From Chlamydoabsidia padenii (Eukaryota > Mucoromycota > Mucoromycetes > Mucorales > Cunninghamellaceae), in NCBI GenBank assembly GCA_025330725.1, contig JAIWND010000057.1, positions 41,495 to 105,494 on the forward strand: a DNA stretch of 64,000 nt. Direction: 5' to 3'. Both the position numbers and the translations under genes were made by a program. Below the pieces are notes generated by a model. That model was given only the letters and a program-made list of their open reading frames with translations, did not search any database and was not told the origin of the DNA. Below, piece after piece: positions 31,846 to 40,986 of the stretch; within the stretch, counting starts at the first letter, position 1; the number at the start of each line of letters is the position of its first letter.

Positions 31846-31902
31846 TAAAAACCCATCTGTCCACATTTACTTTTATATATAGTGCTTCCAAAAAGTAATG
31901 TC

Positions 31903-32080
31903 ACAGCCAATCAAAATCAATGTCACAGGTCATCTAAAAACAATGTTATTGGTCAGTCAAAATTGATGTCATTGGCTAGTCAAATTGATGTCATTGGCTA
32001 GTCAAATTGATGTCATTGGCCAACCAAAATTGATGTCGCTGGTTAGCTAAAATTAATGAAAATCAATTTCGTCGGTTGCT
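31903..32080 (+). repeat. Subterminal tandem repeats of the composite element
   Basis: Six to eight degenerate units of about 22-24 bp, based on AATTGATGTCATTGGCTAG, lie between the left terminal repeat and the transposase start. Such subterminal arrays may bind transposase. The right end lacks them. Confidence 0.75.
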
Positions 32081-32154
32081 TAGAAATCATCTCCTCGTGA
32101 TTCTTGGCAGCCGAAAAATATTAAAAGAGAGCGAGTATTCTTTTTCAATTCAAC

Positions 32155-33436
32155 ATGAGTACAATATTTCTATATGAAGATGGGCAGGGGAATGTTATTG
32201 ATGAGAATGGTGGTCCTGAGCCCATGGACTACATTGTTGATCAGAATGAATTTATCGTTGAGACTATTACTACTTATACAGAGTACCTGGGAAATGCAGT
32301 CTCCAATGAGGCTTCTTTGACATGCCCGATGTTAGAAAAACCAAAAAATGAAGATATTCATATGAAGGAGACAAAACCAAAACGAGAGTATGTGCGTTAT
32401 ACAGTTCAGGATAAGGCTAGGTTTTTCGATCTGAAGATTGAAAAATGTATGACTGCATCAGCTGCAGCAAAGCAGTTGGGCATTCACCCTCGAACGGCGT
32501 ATAGGTGGGTTAGCAAGTATAATTCATGCCCTGACAGTATTTTTGAGAGCTGTAAAAAAGCAGGTCGTAAGTGCATCTTAACTGAAGAGCATAAAACGAC
32601 TGTTATCAACTTCATTGATACTAATCCCTCTGCTACTGTTGTTGAAGTGACTGAGCATTTATTGCAGCAATTTCATGATCTTAAAGTATCACGTAGCACT
32701 GTTAATAACTTTATGAGACGTGAATGCAACCTTTCGTTGAAAAAAGCAGATTTTCATTCTATTGAGAGAAACAGTCTAGCAAAGGTTGATGAGCGGTACA
32801 ATTGGGTATGTAAATGGGAAAATACAGACATGAACTTTCTGACGAATTGCGTGTTTCTTGATGAGTCTGCTTTTGATATTAATATGAAACGCTCTAGAGC
32901 TTGGTCCAAAAAAGGTACTCGTGCTATTGTTACCAGGCCTACTACAAGAGCAAATACGACGTCTATATTGGGCGCGATTTCTGCCTCGGGTTTGATAACC
33001 GTCGGGGTAAAAAAAACCTAGACCTGCAAAGAAGAGAAAGGCTGATGGATACATAAGCTCAGGAACAGTAACAGGTCACTACATTAGTTTCTTAAAAACG
33101 ACCCTTGATGAAATGGACAAACATCCACATATGAAAGGTCACTATATTGTTATGGATAATGCACCCATTCACACGCATGAAAACATAAAGAAGTACATTG
33201 AGTATCGAGGATATAAATGTGTGTATCTTCCTGCCTACTCTCCTGAGCTTAACCCAATTGAACAATTCTGGGCAGTGGCAAAGAGTAAGGTTAAACGTCA
33301 TAGGTTTTTGCAGGAAGACACTTTGTCCAAGAGGATTACAGAGGCCTGCAATAGTGTGAACCAAAGTCATTTCAAAGGATTTGTCTCGCATTCTTACAAC
33401 TGTTGGGATAAATGCAGAAACAAAGAGCCCATGTAA
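32155..33436 (+). CDS. Tc1/mariner-IS630-type transposase, left copy (frameshift at A8)
   Basis: This is a DDE transposase expected to cut and paste the element at TA. The N terminus (start 32155) has an acidic leader, then a helix-turn-helix (ASAAAKQLGIHPRTAYRWVS) and a second one (KVSRSTVNNFMRRECNLSL). Catalytic residues are D in VFLDESAFD, D in IVMDNAPIH and E in LNPIEQFW, spaced DD34E. The frame shifts by one base in an A8 run at about 33009-33016 (after GLITVG); the second part resumes with RPAKKRKADGY and ends at 33436. The same A8 occurs in the other copy. It is either an inactivating slip or a site of programmed frameshifting. Confidence 0.85.
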
Positions 33437-33463
33437 TGGTCTCAACAATCCAGCGATTAAACC

Positions 33464-33494
<31 letters not shown>

Positions 33495-33738
33495 TTTAAG
33501 ATACATCTATCGATTATCTACCGACACATCGAACTCAAAATATCAGGCTAAAATGTGCATTGCTGCATTACAACAGGATGCATTGAACAATTGTGGTAAA
33601 GGTTATAATAATAATAATAAAAAAAGACGGAACGATCATAAGGTAAGGCAGGTAAGGCATAAGGTAAGGCAGGTAAGGCATAAGGTAAGGCACATAGCAA
33701 TGTAAGACATGCAGATAAGGAACCCCCCCTTTTTTTTG
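32217..33738 (+). repeat. Left arm of the 1.5-kb inverted repeat
   Basis: The reverse complement of about 35807-37356. It starts at TGAGCCCATGGAC within the transposase gene and ends near the C7 tract at 33722-33728. By eye the two arms are almost identical; the transposases differ by one residue (Tyr/His) over the shared part. Confidence 0.9.
33640..33692 (+). repeat. GTAAGGC tandem repeat, left arm
   Basis: Short direct repeats built from AAGGTAAGGCAGGTAAGGCAT, fewer units than in the right arm (35854-35937). The copy-number difference is one of the few changes between arms. Confidence 0.9.
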
Positions 33739-33787
33739 TTTTGAACTTCTAATCGCCTCTTTCTTCAACCACTTGCCTACTTTCGTG

Positions 33788-35330
33788 ATGTCTGATGCAA
33801 AACAATCTGTGTATCTTATTAATCGCTGCTTCGAGAGCAATGATTGCACCCGTGAATTCAGCACACCTAGAAAACTACACGACCACCTTCAACATGGCCA
33901 CGGATATGTATTCCCCGCTCGTTTGAAGTCTACCCGTCGATACAACAGCAAAAAACACCTGTACCTGCGACATCGTTTTAATGATTCAAACACTGGATCT
34001 GTGATAGATCTTTTTGCCTGCCCATGCTGTACCGACCATCATATTGATTTGATTGACTTATCAGTCCATTTTCGAACTGTGCACTATGATTATCTGCCCC
34101 CCATACCTCCAACAGCGCGATCAGGATAACTTGGACGGTAAACCTGCCAATGTAGAATGCCACGATGATGACAGCTCTCAAAACTCAATGGAAAATTCTC
34201 CATCAACCAAGCAAAAGCGTCCTCGCGATGAAGAACTCTCTGTTGAGGGTATCGTATTTCTGCATCCTGGTCCTGATCGTTTAGTGATTGACAGCTTTGA
34301 TTTGGCTCAAGCCTTCTACAACCTTCAGACTTCTTTGAAACAAGAAAAATGGAAGCTGTCGCTTGAGCAAAATGTACATCTTGCGTTGGCGGCGACGTCA
34401 ATTCTGCTCATGACGCCAAACAAATATCCTGGACAATTACAACAGTTCTTCACGTCTGAAGAATGGAGGGTGACCAATGACTGGATTCAAGATTTGTACG
34501 GGATCAAACGTAAGCCCATGCCTGCGGACACCGTGAGCAGCATGCTGTGCATAATCGACGATCTCATAAACAAAACTATCAACCGTGAGGAAGCTGATGC
34601 CAGATTGAAGAAGTTACCCTTGGATGAGTATGGACATAAGTTCGCCAAGGCCGTAGGCGGCTTGATATTGAAGCTTATGCGTGCACCGATGGATGAAGAT
34701 GCCAATGAAACTGAATTGTGTTCTCGGTTCATTGATCCATTTCTTACCGGTTTGTTTGATGATCCTGATCAAGGGATTTGTTTACGGTGGACCAATGATG
34801 CAACCCTGGAAGCCAAGACGTGCGTAGATTTTACTACAAATCGGCCGGATTTATGCATTACCAAGTGCTGCGGCGTAAAATGGAAGTCAAGCCTGGCATA
34901 TGGTGAAGCCAAACCTGCTATCCGTGAAAAGGACCACTTTTTTTTGTGCAAGGACTTGTTGAAAGTGGCTATCTTTTGCAAAGATGCCTTGGACCACCAA
35001 TTGATGCAAGGGATGCTTGGAATTCAAATCATCGGTCGAACTATACAATTTTATCTTCTGACATTACCAGCCAAGGGCTTATATGTGATGACTGAATTAA
35101 CAACGATCAAGATCCCTGACTCACTCCAAAATTTACCAAGCCTTGTACCTGAACTACCAAACGTCCTGAAAATCCTTGATGTTTTTCATCGAGTTTGTAT
35201 ACCTGTCAATGATGTTGCGAGTGCCAAGAACCGCTATACGTTAACTTTGCCACGTCAAAAATTCGACCAACTCTTCACCATGTCCAAAGATTGCAAGAAA
35301 CCGTGTCATTTGAAGATTCGGCACAATTGA
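33788..35330 (+). CDS. Cargo protein: C2H2-finger N terminus plus PD-(D/E)XK-like nuclease domain
   Basis: The N-terminal frame (start 33788) has two C2H2-like fingers: CFESNDCTREFSTPRKLHDH with LQHGH, then CPCCTDHHIDLIDLSVHF with RTVHY. A frame change at a C6 run (34098-34103) leads into a 400-residue frame to 35330, which has a basic spacer (STKQKRPRDEE) and a globular part. In the latter, ELCSRFIDPFL, RPDLCIT (34842-34862) and YGEAKPA (GEAK at 34902-34913) are in the order E...PD...ExK of restriction-endonuclease folds. Similar large families exist in Mucorales as far as I recall. Nuclease activity is inferred, and the frameshift may inactivate this copy. Part 35331-35806 has no gene. Confidence 0.55.
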
Positions 35331-35853
35331 TTACCATCGGTACTTTGATTTTTTTTCTTTCATTTCCCTTCCCGGTTTTGCTCACTGATACATCGAGTCT
35401 TCTACATGTTCATTACTACGTTTGTTTATGATTAGTGTCAAATCCCAAGAAAGTTTCTCTCATCTCCTGCTATGAAAACTGTGCGCCTAACTCTCTACGA
35501 CCCAAACAGTGCGTTCGAATTCCCAATAAAAAAAAATGGCAATCTTTAAATAAATAAATTTTTTTTTTTTCGAATGTCATTGACTACTACATTGTAATCT
35601 GATACAGTAATCGCATTTATTTGACCCTTGTTAATGCGCATATTACTCCGCGCCTAATTGTATCTATTTTGCATATGTATCAAATATCGTTCATATTGAT
35701 AATGAAATGTTATATCCATCATCGATGAGTTTTATGACTAATTTATTATTGGTTTCAAAAGTCTCGTTCCACGTTTCGTTTATCTGACATAACGAAAAAA
35801 CTGGAACAAAAAGAAAGGGGGGTTCCTTATCTGCATGTCTTACATTGCTATGT

Positions 35854-35937
35854 GCCTTACCTTATGCCTTACCTGCCTTACCTGCCTTACCTTATGCCTT
35901 ACCTGCCTTACCTTATGCCTTACCTGCCTTACCTTAT
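35854..35937 (-). repeat. GTAAGGC tandem repeat, right arm
   Basis: Same unit as 33640-33692, about 30 bp longer. Confidence 0.9.
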
Positions 35938-36136
35938 GATCGTTCCGTCTTTTTTTATTATTATTATTATAACCTTTACCACAATTGTTCAATGCATCCT
36001 GTTGTAATGCAGCAATGCACATTTTAGCCTGATATTTTGAGTTCGATGTGTCGGTAGATAATCGATAGATGTATCTTAAATATATTTTTTTTTTTTTTTT
36101 TTTTTTTTTGGTTTAATCGCTGGATTGTTGAGACCA

Positions 36137-37349
36137 TTACATGGGCTCTTTGTTTCTGCATTTATCCCAACAGTTGTAAGAATGCGAGACAAATCCTTTG
36201 AAATGACTTTGGTTCACACTATTGCAGGCCTCTGTAATCCTCTTGGACAAAGTGTCTTCCTGCAAAAACCTATGACGTTTAACCTTACTCTTTGCCACTG
36301 CCCAGAATTGTTCAATTGGGTTAAGCTCAGGAGAGTAGGCAGGAAGATACACACATTTATATCCTCGATACTCAATGTACTTCTTTATGTTTTCATGCGT
36401 GTGAATGGGTGCATTATCCATAACAATATAGTGACCTTTCATATGTGGATGTTTGTCCATTTCATCAAGGGTCGTTTTTAAGAAACTAATGTAGTGACCT
36501 GTTACTGTTCCTGAGCTTATGTATCCATCAGCCTTTCTCTTCTTTGCAGGTCTAGGTTTTTTTTACCCCGACGGTTATCAAACCCGAGGCAGAAATCGCG
36601 CCCAATATAGACGTCGTATTTGCTCTTGTAGTAGGCCTGGTAACAATAGCACGAGTACCTTTTTTGGACCAAGCTCTAGAGCGTTTCATATTAATATCAA
36701 AAGCAGACTCATCAAGAAACACGCAATTCGTCAGAAAGTTCATGTCTGTATTTTCCCATTTACATACCCAATTGTACCGCTCATCAACCTTTGCTAGACT
36801 GTTTCTCTCAATAGAATGAAAATCTGCTTTTTTCAACGAAAGGTTGCATTCACGTCTCATAAAGTTATTAACAGTGCTACGTGATACTTTAAGATCATGA
36901 AATTGCTGCAATAAATGCTCAGTCACTTCAACAACAGTAGCAGAGGGATTAGTATCAATGAAGTTGATAACAGTCGTTTTATGCTCTTCAGTTAAGATGC
37001 ACTTACGACCTGCTTTTTTACAGCTCTCAAAAATACTGTCAGGGCATGAATTATACTTGCTAACCCACCTATACGCCGTTCGAGGGTGAATGCCCAACTG
37101 CTTTGCTGCAGCTGATGCAGTCATACATTTTTCAATCTTCAGATCGAAAAACCTAGCCTTATCCTGAACTGTATAACGCACATACTCTCGTTTTGGTTTT
37201 GTCTCCTTCATATGAATATCTTCATTTTTTGGTTTTTCTAACATCGGGCATGTCAAAGAAGCCTCATTGGAGACTGCATTTCCCAGGTACTCTGTATGAG
37301 TAGTAATAGTCTCAACGATAAATTCATTCTGATCAACAATGTAGTCCAT
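36137..37349 (-). pseudogene. Tc1/mariner-IS630-type transposase, right copy, N-truncated
   Basis: This copy carries the same HTH and DD34E catalytic core as the left one, read on the minus strand. The first 22 codons of the left copy are missing because homology ends at 37356. An internal ATG (MDYIVDQNEF) happens to open the frame at 37349. It carries the same A8 frameshift (about 36557-36564). Its upstream region is not that of the left copy, so expression is doubtful. Confidence 0.8.
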
Positions 37350-37462
37350 GGGCTCACGACTTCATTGTTGCACACGAAGATTTTTTGCACGACATCAAAC
37401 TCAAAATCAGCGACATTACTTTTTGAAATGACTGTATTTACTATTCACTTTATCAATAAAAA

Positions 37463-39648: not shown

Positions 39649-40986
39649 CAGTCCTCTACCAAAATAAACAGGACACTCCGAAAAATGATTTCCATTTTTG
39701 GACTTTTCTCTTTTGTTTTGCATTTTACTCAGTAAATAGAAAGACAACCGTACCTCAAATTAAACATGAATAAAGATATACTTCTTCTCTTTCGGATGAT
39801 GTAAAAAACGTTTATTTTTCTCGATTATTTTTTAAAAAAAAGTCTTATATGACTTCACCAGCGGGTGCTTCCTCCCCTTTTTGATCGAAGGGTATTAATG
39901 CGAGTCGGAACTGACTCTATTAACTTGTTAACTGTTTCTATAGGTATGTCCAGCTAAGCATCCTTTATGTTTTTTGTCAGCATTTCGACGGTGCCAGATG
40001 CCTTGTGGCGCTTCTGGACGGCTATCTTCATGATCTGCCAAAGATTTTCGATAGGATTCAGATCAGGCGATTGTGCGGACCACACAAGTTTTTTCAAGCC
40101 ATGATCTGCCCTCCAAGCCTTTGGCGTATTACTTCTATGTTCAGGAGCACCATCCTCCATCAAAATGGGATCGATGAATCCGCCCATAAACTGAAGTAAT
40201 GAGCCGTCATACATCTGATCCACGAAATCCGTAGCAGTCCGCCTAGATTTGTCCATCACCACTAGCTCAGACTTCTTACCATAGGCAATGGCCCCTAAAC
40301 CATCACCGAGGTTCTACCACTCTTAAAAGTAGAACTGGTACAGCCATTATCGAACTCTTCACCGGGTCTACGCCATACCCTGAGCTGGCGAGTGTTCCTA
40401 CCCAACTCAAAGGTGGACTCGTCGGTCCATATGACCTCTTTCCACTGGTTGAGCGTCCACGTAAAGTGTACTTGAGCAAAGACTTTCCGTTGGACAATAT
40501 GCCTCGGCATAAGGAAAGGCTTCATTCGGGCCACCCTGTTAGCGATCCCTTCATCTTTCAATACACGTCGGATTGTGCTGGTGCTGACATTCAGATCGAG
40601 ATCATTCCTGATTTCACCGAGGGTACCCCGTTTGTTTGTTTTTTTCGTAGCGGTGACGACCGACCTTCTGTCCCTTGGTGTCAACTTTGAAGGCCGTCCT
40701 CTCATTTCCTGAAAATCAGATGACTCATCGATCTCAACCATCTTCAAAATTTCGAAGATTGCAGATCTAGACTTTTTAACATGGAATACGATTTTCGCGA
40801 CCGACATTCCCCCTACGTGTAATCCTTTGATATAGCCACGTTCGTAAGCTGTAGCGCGTGTCATGGTAAAAATTTTGAGTGCGAAATAGTTGAAGTGGAG
40901 CTAATAAACTTCAATTAACTACAAGGTATGTTTTATTTTTTTCAAATGGCGAATAAAAATGTCCTGTTTACTTTGGAAGGGGACTG
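39649..40986 (-). mobile_element. Tc1-like element with 27-bp terminal inverted repeats
   Basis: This 1338-bp element has ends CAGTCC...AAACAGGACA at 39649-39675 and its inverse at 40960-40986 (24 of 27 identical). A TA precedes the left end (39647-39648); the right flank reads TG, so the TA duplication has decayed or been altered. It holds a single transposase gene on the minus strand. The paralogous unit B shows the site without the insert (TTGTACAATG at 42803-42812). Confidence 0.88.
39954..40864 (-). pseudogene. Tc1-type transposase, broken once
   Basis: The N-terminal part (MTRATAYERGYIKGLHVGGM) has a helix-turn-helix, then ASTIRRVLK-type HTH sequence and the first catalytic D in EVIWTDESTFEL. 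After SVMV the W-G motif is lost through a stop and single-base shift at about 40294. The rest continues with ELVVMDKSRRTATDF, the second D in MEDGAPEH and E in LNPIENLW, spaced DD34E. Apart from that lesion the frame is intact, so the element is relatively young. Confidence 0.88.

Follow-up and report, generated by a model that had tools for sequence, protein, structure and literature searches.

The window analysed here, a stretch of 64,000 nucleotides of the mucoralean fungus Chlamydoabsidia padenii, corresponds to C53:41495-105494 in a genome assembly of 95 contigs and 34.2 Mb (C-numbers denote contigs of this genome). At positions 31880-37434 it contains an element of about 5.5 kb, flanked on both sides by TA, in which two inverted transposase arms enclose a further gene, referred to as the cargo gene. 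With a probability of roughly 0.62, this element is interpreted as a broken, end-chimeric member of a two-armed Tc1/mariner family of Mucorales, for which steps of movement, repair and nuclease action are proposed below. The basic unit of the family is a terminus followed by an iterated binding-type motif, a DD34E transposase gene with a repeat-rich tail, a zinc-finger/PD-(D/E)XK gene and a second copy of this arm in inverted orientation. The features of the window element are the following:

31878..31879, left TA flank
31880..32051, plus strand, left end, subfamily A (terminus and RAWGTCR motif)
32155..33436, plus strand, left transposase gene of Tc1 type with helix-turn-helix (HTH) and DDE_3 domains; frame break in an A-rich run near 33010
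32213..33740, plus strand, left arm, portion matched by the right arm
33637..33699, plus strand, CATAAGGTAAGGCAGGTAAGG-type tandem repeats close to the inner border of the left arm
33773..34129, plus strand, 5' part of the cargo gene, C2H2-like zinc fingers (weak Pfam match); frame break near 34100
34125..35330, plus strand, main part of the cargo gene, PD-(D/E)XK-type domain (residue pattern; the fold looked at was that of a 71% relative)
35805..37360, minus strand, right arm
36137..37349, minus strand, right transposase gene, with the same frame lesion as the left one and without its first ~20 codons
37357..37434, minus strand, right end, subfamily B (CAGTCATTTCAAAAAGTAATGTCGC...; motif at 18, 39 and 72), fused to the A-type arm
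37435..37436, right TA flank

Of 1526 aligned arm bases, 1522 were identical; in addition, the arms differ in length at two points, by 2 and 30 nt. The longest gap-free inverted block (32213-33493 against 36080-37360) comprised 1281 nt with 2 mismatches, and the length of this 1.3-kb inverted repeat puts a chance origin out of question. An outer inverted pair of 29 nt (83%) was located at 31874-31902 and 37412-37440, the terminal repeats themselves measuring 22-23 bp. In each arm the transposase is spread over two frames; in the left arm these matched the Pfam families DDE_3 (E 5e-8 and 2.1e-19) and HTH_23 (E 7.8e-8). The open transposase frame of the C20 relative matched DDE_3 with E 6.8e-24 and HTH_23 above its cut-off, and showed the DD34E spacing (D256, D357 and E392, the latter two separated by 34 residues). 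HTH and DDE_3 domains, DD34E triad and TA flanks are in accordance with Tc1/mariner; the usual, although not strictly defining, trait of a short element with one transposase gene was not observed, two inverted copies and a cargo being present over ~5.5 kb.

The cargo gene of the window is divided into a C2H2-like open reading frame at 33773-34129, whose best zinc-finger match reached only E 0.08, and a second one in another frame (34053-35330) with the pattern E ... PD ... E-x-K, kept in relatives. In the translation of 34125-35327 this pattern corresponds to PD at residues 241-242 and E261-x-K263. Among 10 cargo rows from the same genome P241, E261 and K263 were invariant, and D242 and E195 were conserved in at least 90%; in a 43-row alignment E318 was invariant and P364, D365, E384 and K386 were conserved in at least 90%. 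The motif of the PD-(D/E)XK superfamily, E ... (P)D ... (E)xK, is thus conserved in the cargo family. A C-x2-C-x12-H-x4-H pattern was visible in cargo translations, with a best zinc-finger match of E 4.7e-4, below the curated cut-off. The Pfam matches listed for the cargo proteins scanned, up to E 1, were weak, mostly to zinc fingers, and included no kinase family; a sequence-profile search of the Protein Data Bank (PDB) yielded no match up to E 1, and none of 62 pattern matches in viral contigs was confirmed as cargo. The cargo protein resembles a DNA cutter, from which we infer a putative nuclease role.

These results agree with the first-pass annotation, which had described inverted transposase arms around a C2H2 plus PD-(D/E)XK-like gene, terminal repeats beside TA at the outer ends, and a right end unrelated to the left subterminal region; the right end could, in addition, be assigned to another transposase subfamily.

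The two-armed layout is recurrent. Eight loci of the genome, the window included, have inward-facing, closely alike arms bearing a Tc1-type transposase, and in five of these (C53, C20, C37, C36 and C3) the arms enclose a cargo relative. Transposase matches amounted to 98, with pieces of broken copies counted separately, and cargo-family matches to 32; all genome-wide counts of copies and loci are lower bounds, as the search scored best candidates only. The arms of C20 (107511-109350 and 111241-113056) match out to the terminal CAGT at 1812 of 1813 aligned bases with three length differences, and those of C37 (94307-96064 and 97976-99729) likewise, at 1746 of 1746 with one length difference, both elements having TA on both sides. 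C20 retains uninterrupted frames of 449 codons for each of its transposases and of 506 codons for its cargo. The C36 arms lie at 144824-146473 and 153090-154739; in C3 the second arm is reduced to a 210-nt remnant (97.6%). The remaining loci are C27 (2-kb arms, 96.3%), C51 (95.3%, a deletion form in which both transposases stop matching at residue 193) and a second C37 locus (151449-152569 and 164597-165717, 99.8% over 1121 bases). The inverted pair C36:66453-67694 and 82709-83947, 87% alike and 15 kb apart, was left out of the count.

Lesions are common to the two arms of an element, so the arms evolve together. Compared with C38, both C37 arms had 14 substitutions in common and none specific to one arm; compared with C41, both C53 arms shared 11 substitutions and 2 were arm-specific; in each case the two arms also have a frame lesion in common. 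Frame breaks common to both arms were present in C37, C53 and C36, where introns are possible. Either conversion between the arms or renewed formation of the second arm would explain these shared lesions.

The left terminus of the window element reads TAGTGCTTCC... and that of a copy in C41 CAGTGCTTCC...; the left 330 bp of the window element carry a subfamily-A end. The motif RAWGTCR occurs in the A end at element positions 18, 40, 86, 108, 130 and 153, and in B ends at 18, 39, 71-73 and partly 92-93 (the C36:151901 end has it at 18 and 93 only), in steps of about two helical turns; its background in the rest of the window was 0.17 per 200 nt per strand, and the pattern was picked after the ends had been inspected. 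Since the terminus and the first two motif positions are common to A and B ends, it is plausible that one transposase could act on a mixed pair such as that of the window copy. Among the five elements with two recognised ends, four (C20, C37, C53 and C36:149224-151901) had TA on both sides; TA accounts for 6.7% of the window dinucleotides, and the TA flanks of one copy alone are weak evidence. C36:149224-151901 is a transposase-only element with two B ends; it sits inside the C36 two-armed locus, with about 1 kb of unexplained sequence behind its gene.

The first-pass annotation proposed that the whole 5.5 kb moves as one unit. The recurring layout at eight loci and the TA-flanked matching ends of relatives favour this for the two-armed family; the window copy itself, with its chimeric right end, may or may not have moved as it stands. 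The C41 copy (97-99%) comprises the left end, the left arm and 358 cargo residues (99%) of the window element beside other flanks, which indicates that subfamily A moved too; its right arm was not found in its contig. In the regions C41:150785-151981 and 152096-155300, this copy begins in what we take to be an integrase-like frame and is interrupted by a large element with self-complementary borders of ~290 nt, as well as by a 510-nt insertion. The large element presumably encodes a chromodomain-like protein end. At C37, the right and left flanks read as parts of one gene, and a search with the joined reading matched each half at C37; in addition, C38:141278-141628 aligns across the C37 junction with 28% identity (E 3e-10; one of four loci compared, at low stringency). 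The flank evidence supports a probable insertion of the whole 5.4 kb at C37, its exact footprint not being fixed.

The window copy itself is a relic, with the transposase frames broken in both arms, the cargo frame broken and a right end from a foreign subfamily. The same break near 33010 affects both arms, and the C41 copy is open at this site and at the cargo break near 34100. A programmed frameshift in the transposase was considered and rejected: in the C41, C3 and second C37 copies the frame runs uninterrupted through this site, so that the break in C53 is a lesion. The right end (78-80 bp) was 93% identical to the subfamily-B ends C41:6215-6297 and C20:47588-47667, and is joined to the A arm at 37357-37363, where A and B have ~2 bp in common; because of this junction the right transposase lacks its first ~20 codons. 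At C37:165717 and at window position 37363, in two separate A-type elements, the second arm breaks off on its outer side at nearly the same transposase codon, just before EPMDY.

According to a first alternative, which has slightly less than an even chance, the window copy never moved whole, and a damaged two-armed A element gained its B right end by end joining. The short overlap at the A/B junction suits this history, and so does the genome search, in which no second copy carried both outer ends of the window element, the C41 copy having the left one only. It is opposed by the TA on both sides and by the terminus and first two motif positions shared by A and B, with which a mixed pair could still have been movable by one transposase.

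Transposase arms and cargo have different relationships. Transposase identities were 79% for C53-C3, 84% for C37-C20 and 59% for C53-C37; the corresponding cargo identities were 25%, 20% and 49%. Over six loci of this genome, the transposase tree separated {C53,C3,C54} from {C37,C35,C20} (support 100/100) and the cargo tree {C53,C37,C35} from {C20,C3,C54} (100/99). The cargo data rejected {C53,C3,C54} (approximately unbiased test, p-AU 0.0012), {C53,C3} (1e-6) and {C53,C54} (0.0019), and the transposase data rejected {C20,C3,C54} (2e-5) and {C20,C3} (1e-7); these groups were named after the identity table had been viewed, and the trees contain long branches (C20, and C54, which is also gappy). 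An earlier tree set also took in C36 and proteins of other species, and the groups of the earlier cargo test cut across the other-species rows, which made rejection easy; the six own-genome rows are the fairer version. Synonymous differences (pS) between transposases were 0.34-0.56 within groups and 0.70 and 0.84 between groups, and between cargos 0.78-0.83 for all six pairs computed, including 0.78-0.82 for loci with same-group transposases (the C53-C3 cargo value comes from 73 codons only). As synonymous sites differ likewise, faster evolution of the cargo protein is not the cause of the conflict between the trees, which indicates that arms and cargo were exchanged between lineages.

Close relatives of both parts of C20 were detected in other genera. 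Its transposase is identical at 376 of 380 residues to a protein of Rhizopus delemar and at 293 of 295 to one of R. arrhizus; its cargo is identical at 489 of 496 residues to a protein of R. azygosporus and at 295 of 305 to one of Mucor circinelloides (on a 4.37-Mb contig). Within the genome, identity to the C20 transposase is 84-88% for its closest B counterparts, and identity to the C20 cargo is 17-30% for the remaining cargos. On a 2,824-nt contig, the protein P0144 joins in one chain 227 transposase residues (220 identical) and 97 cargo residues (88 identical), so that both parts are co-oriented on a single small contig elsewhere. Horizontal transfer of C20 parts between genera is the natural reading that these comparisons suggest; it concerns parts and not the whole unit, as the best Rhizopus matches to transposase and cargo belong to different species.

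For the two-armed family the following course is proposed. The transposase from either arm would bind the outer ends and transfer all of the enclosed DNA to a TA site by cut and paste. Conversion between the arms, or gap repair after excision starting at the identical ends, would copy one arm onto the other, and such repair could also swap arms or cargo among elements. The weakest step is the last: the zinc-finger nuclease might cut DNA at donor gaps or empty sites, or in related elements, and thereby fuel repair, which would lead to higher copy number and to exchange. The broader proposal of a class of eukaryotic transposons with a natural zinc-finger nuclease between self-homogenising transposase arms, in which breaks would drive copying, free recombination and horizontal spread, in effect a gene drive on a Tc1 element, is speculative, and we consider it improbable at present.

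A second alternative accepts the mobile architecture and takes the cargo as a passenger with its own role, for instance against competing elements or host silencing, and none in transposition or arm repair; it is rather unlikely, if marginally less so than the proposal just made. The exchange of cargo and transposase lineages suits it, since the cargo is then not tuned to one transposase, and so do cargo relatives without a transposase match in the stretches read (C8:409501-416500 and, with short flanks, C23:1363517-1367618, C39:70456-73689, C52:75196-79285 and C48:125969-129856). Against it stands the presence of the same type of cargo with three transposase groups (A, B and C36 type), random passengers being expected to be more varied. 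The C8 relative (412310-414133) has a 608-codon open frame and possibly represents a host gene or a different carrier. At C41:6475-9674 a zinc-finger-like frame (plus strand) and a C36-type nuclease-like frame (minus strand) are separate, behind one transposase.

Two independent insertions flanking a host gene, for which only the abundance of transposases speaks, were rejected as extremely improbable: a terminus scan (up to 6 mismatches in 27) at C20, C37 and C53 gave outer ends and no inner ones, the layout recurs at eight loci, lesions are common to both arms, and the cargo belongs to a dispersed family. An assembly artefact (a false inverted duplication), for which no supporting point was found, has hardly any probability left, as arms differ by a few bases or in repeat lengths, the centres, of 0.6-12 kb, are unlike each other, and the layout is repeated with different sequences at seven other places.

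Several observations weigh against a two-armed mobile family with a nuclease cargo. The window copy, with mismatched ends and broken genes, gives no sign of having moved whole; C51 has TA on the left and CA on the right, and no clear termini were found at the C36 and C27 two-armed loci. Cargo was not found in C51, nor in the parts read of C27 and of the second C37 locus, whose centre portion 159001-163096 was outside what was read. At C35, C54, C41:6218 and C48:42994-44669, cargo or pieces of it accompany a single transposase, and the second arm may therefore be dispensable; as no second ends were detected for these copies, they may also be fragments. Cargo also stands beside one transposase in C38 (right half) and in the C41 copy (left half). 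The likeness of the arms would be equally expected if, instead of conversion, the second arm were made anew with every move. The interrupted gene at C37 gives no in-frame read-through with a single TA and has other stops as well, and a DNA-level search for an empty site, made for C37, matched its own two flanks alone. Foldseek returned no significant match for the cargo (best E 0.027).

The centre of C27 holds a nested element. Frames that we take to be USP-like and MULE-like were considered there as a distinct cargo and rejected: the same frames occur in the second C37 locus and thus belong to a separate nested element (C27:236501-239631 and C37:155052-157869, in the centres of two two-armed loci). 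Both frames, scanned in part, gave no Pfam match. A second transposase of the window, of Tc3 type (HTH_Tnp_Tc3_2, DDE_3), is located at 39954-40864 on the minus strand, split into two frames.

The two-armed family indicates that a Tc1/mariner element can become a modular, palindromic carrier of an exchangeable gene, beyond ciliates, and its lesion-sharing arms document, in nature, copying from one arm to the other. Should the cargo be an active zinc-finger nuclease, it would be a fungal natural counterpart of the engineered zinc-finger nucleases, able to pass between genera, and whether it contributes to spread is directly testable.

With Tc1/mariner (IS630-Tc1-mariner) elements the fungal family shares the DD34E transposase with HTH and DDE_3 domains, the CAGT-type termini typical of that group, the TA flanks and an iterated subterminal motif; it differs in its size (~5.5 kb), in its very long terminal repeats, each of which houses a transposase gene in inverted orientation to the other, and in the extra gene. 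Bacterial composite transposons such as Tn10 and Tn5 have two inverted transposase units around a cargo, and their outer ends move the whole; the fungal arms, in contrast, are not complete elements, no inner ends having been found at C20, C37 and C53. Very long inverted arms are also a feature of Foldback-type or long-terminal-inverted-repeat (long-TIR) elements such as Galileo and Tetris. To our knowledge, these carry no transposase gene in each arm, and their superfamily differs from Tc1/mariner. In the literature searched, which left most subscription journals outside its coverage, no report of twin transposase arms with a zinc-finger/nuclease cargo was found.

Among published Tc1-mariner elements, a Bari1 variant of Drosophila rhopaloa has two identical long TIRs; long TIRs of Bari elements measure ~250 nt, and no transposase within them is described in the sections available (PMC4877112). 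In a study of six Mucoromycotina genomes, each Mucorales genome is reported to contain over 200 copies of Tc1/Mariner (PMC7928374). The first-pass annotation considered that Tc1/mariner elements normally carry only a transposase and that cargo-bearing ones would be a new class. The former holds as a rule; the latter is reduced to the combination of twin arms with a zinc-finger/nuclease cargo, as the telomere-bearing elements (TBEs) of the ciliate Oxytricha, in the portion of the account available, are Tc1/mariner elements with extra genes, one of them with zinc fingers (PMC4724952). In that account the TBE has one transposase copy, its 57-kD protein combines zinc finger and kinase instead of a nuclease, and the setting is a ciliate germline; the Pfam matches of the fungal cargo proteins scanned gave no sign of the TBE set, a 57-kD zinc finger-kinase gene and a 22-kD gene. 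TBE2.1 and TBE2.2 are there described as having similar transposases and distinct 57-kD genes (PMC4724952), a situation comparable to the unlinked arms and cargo of the fungal family.

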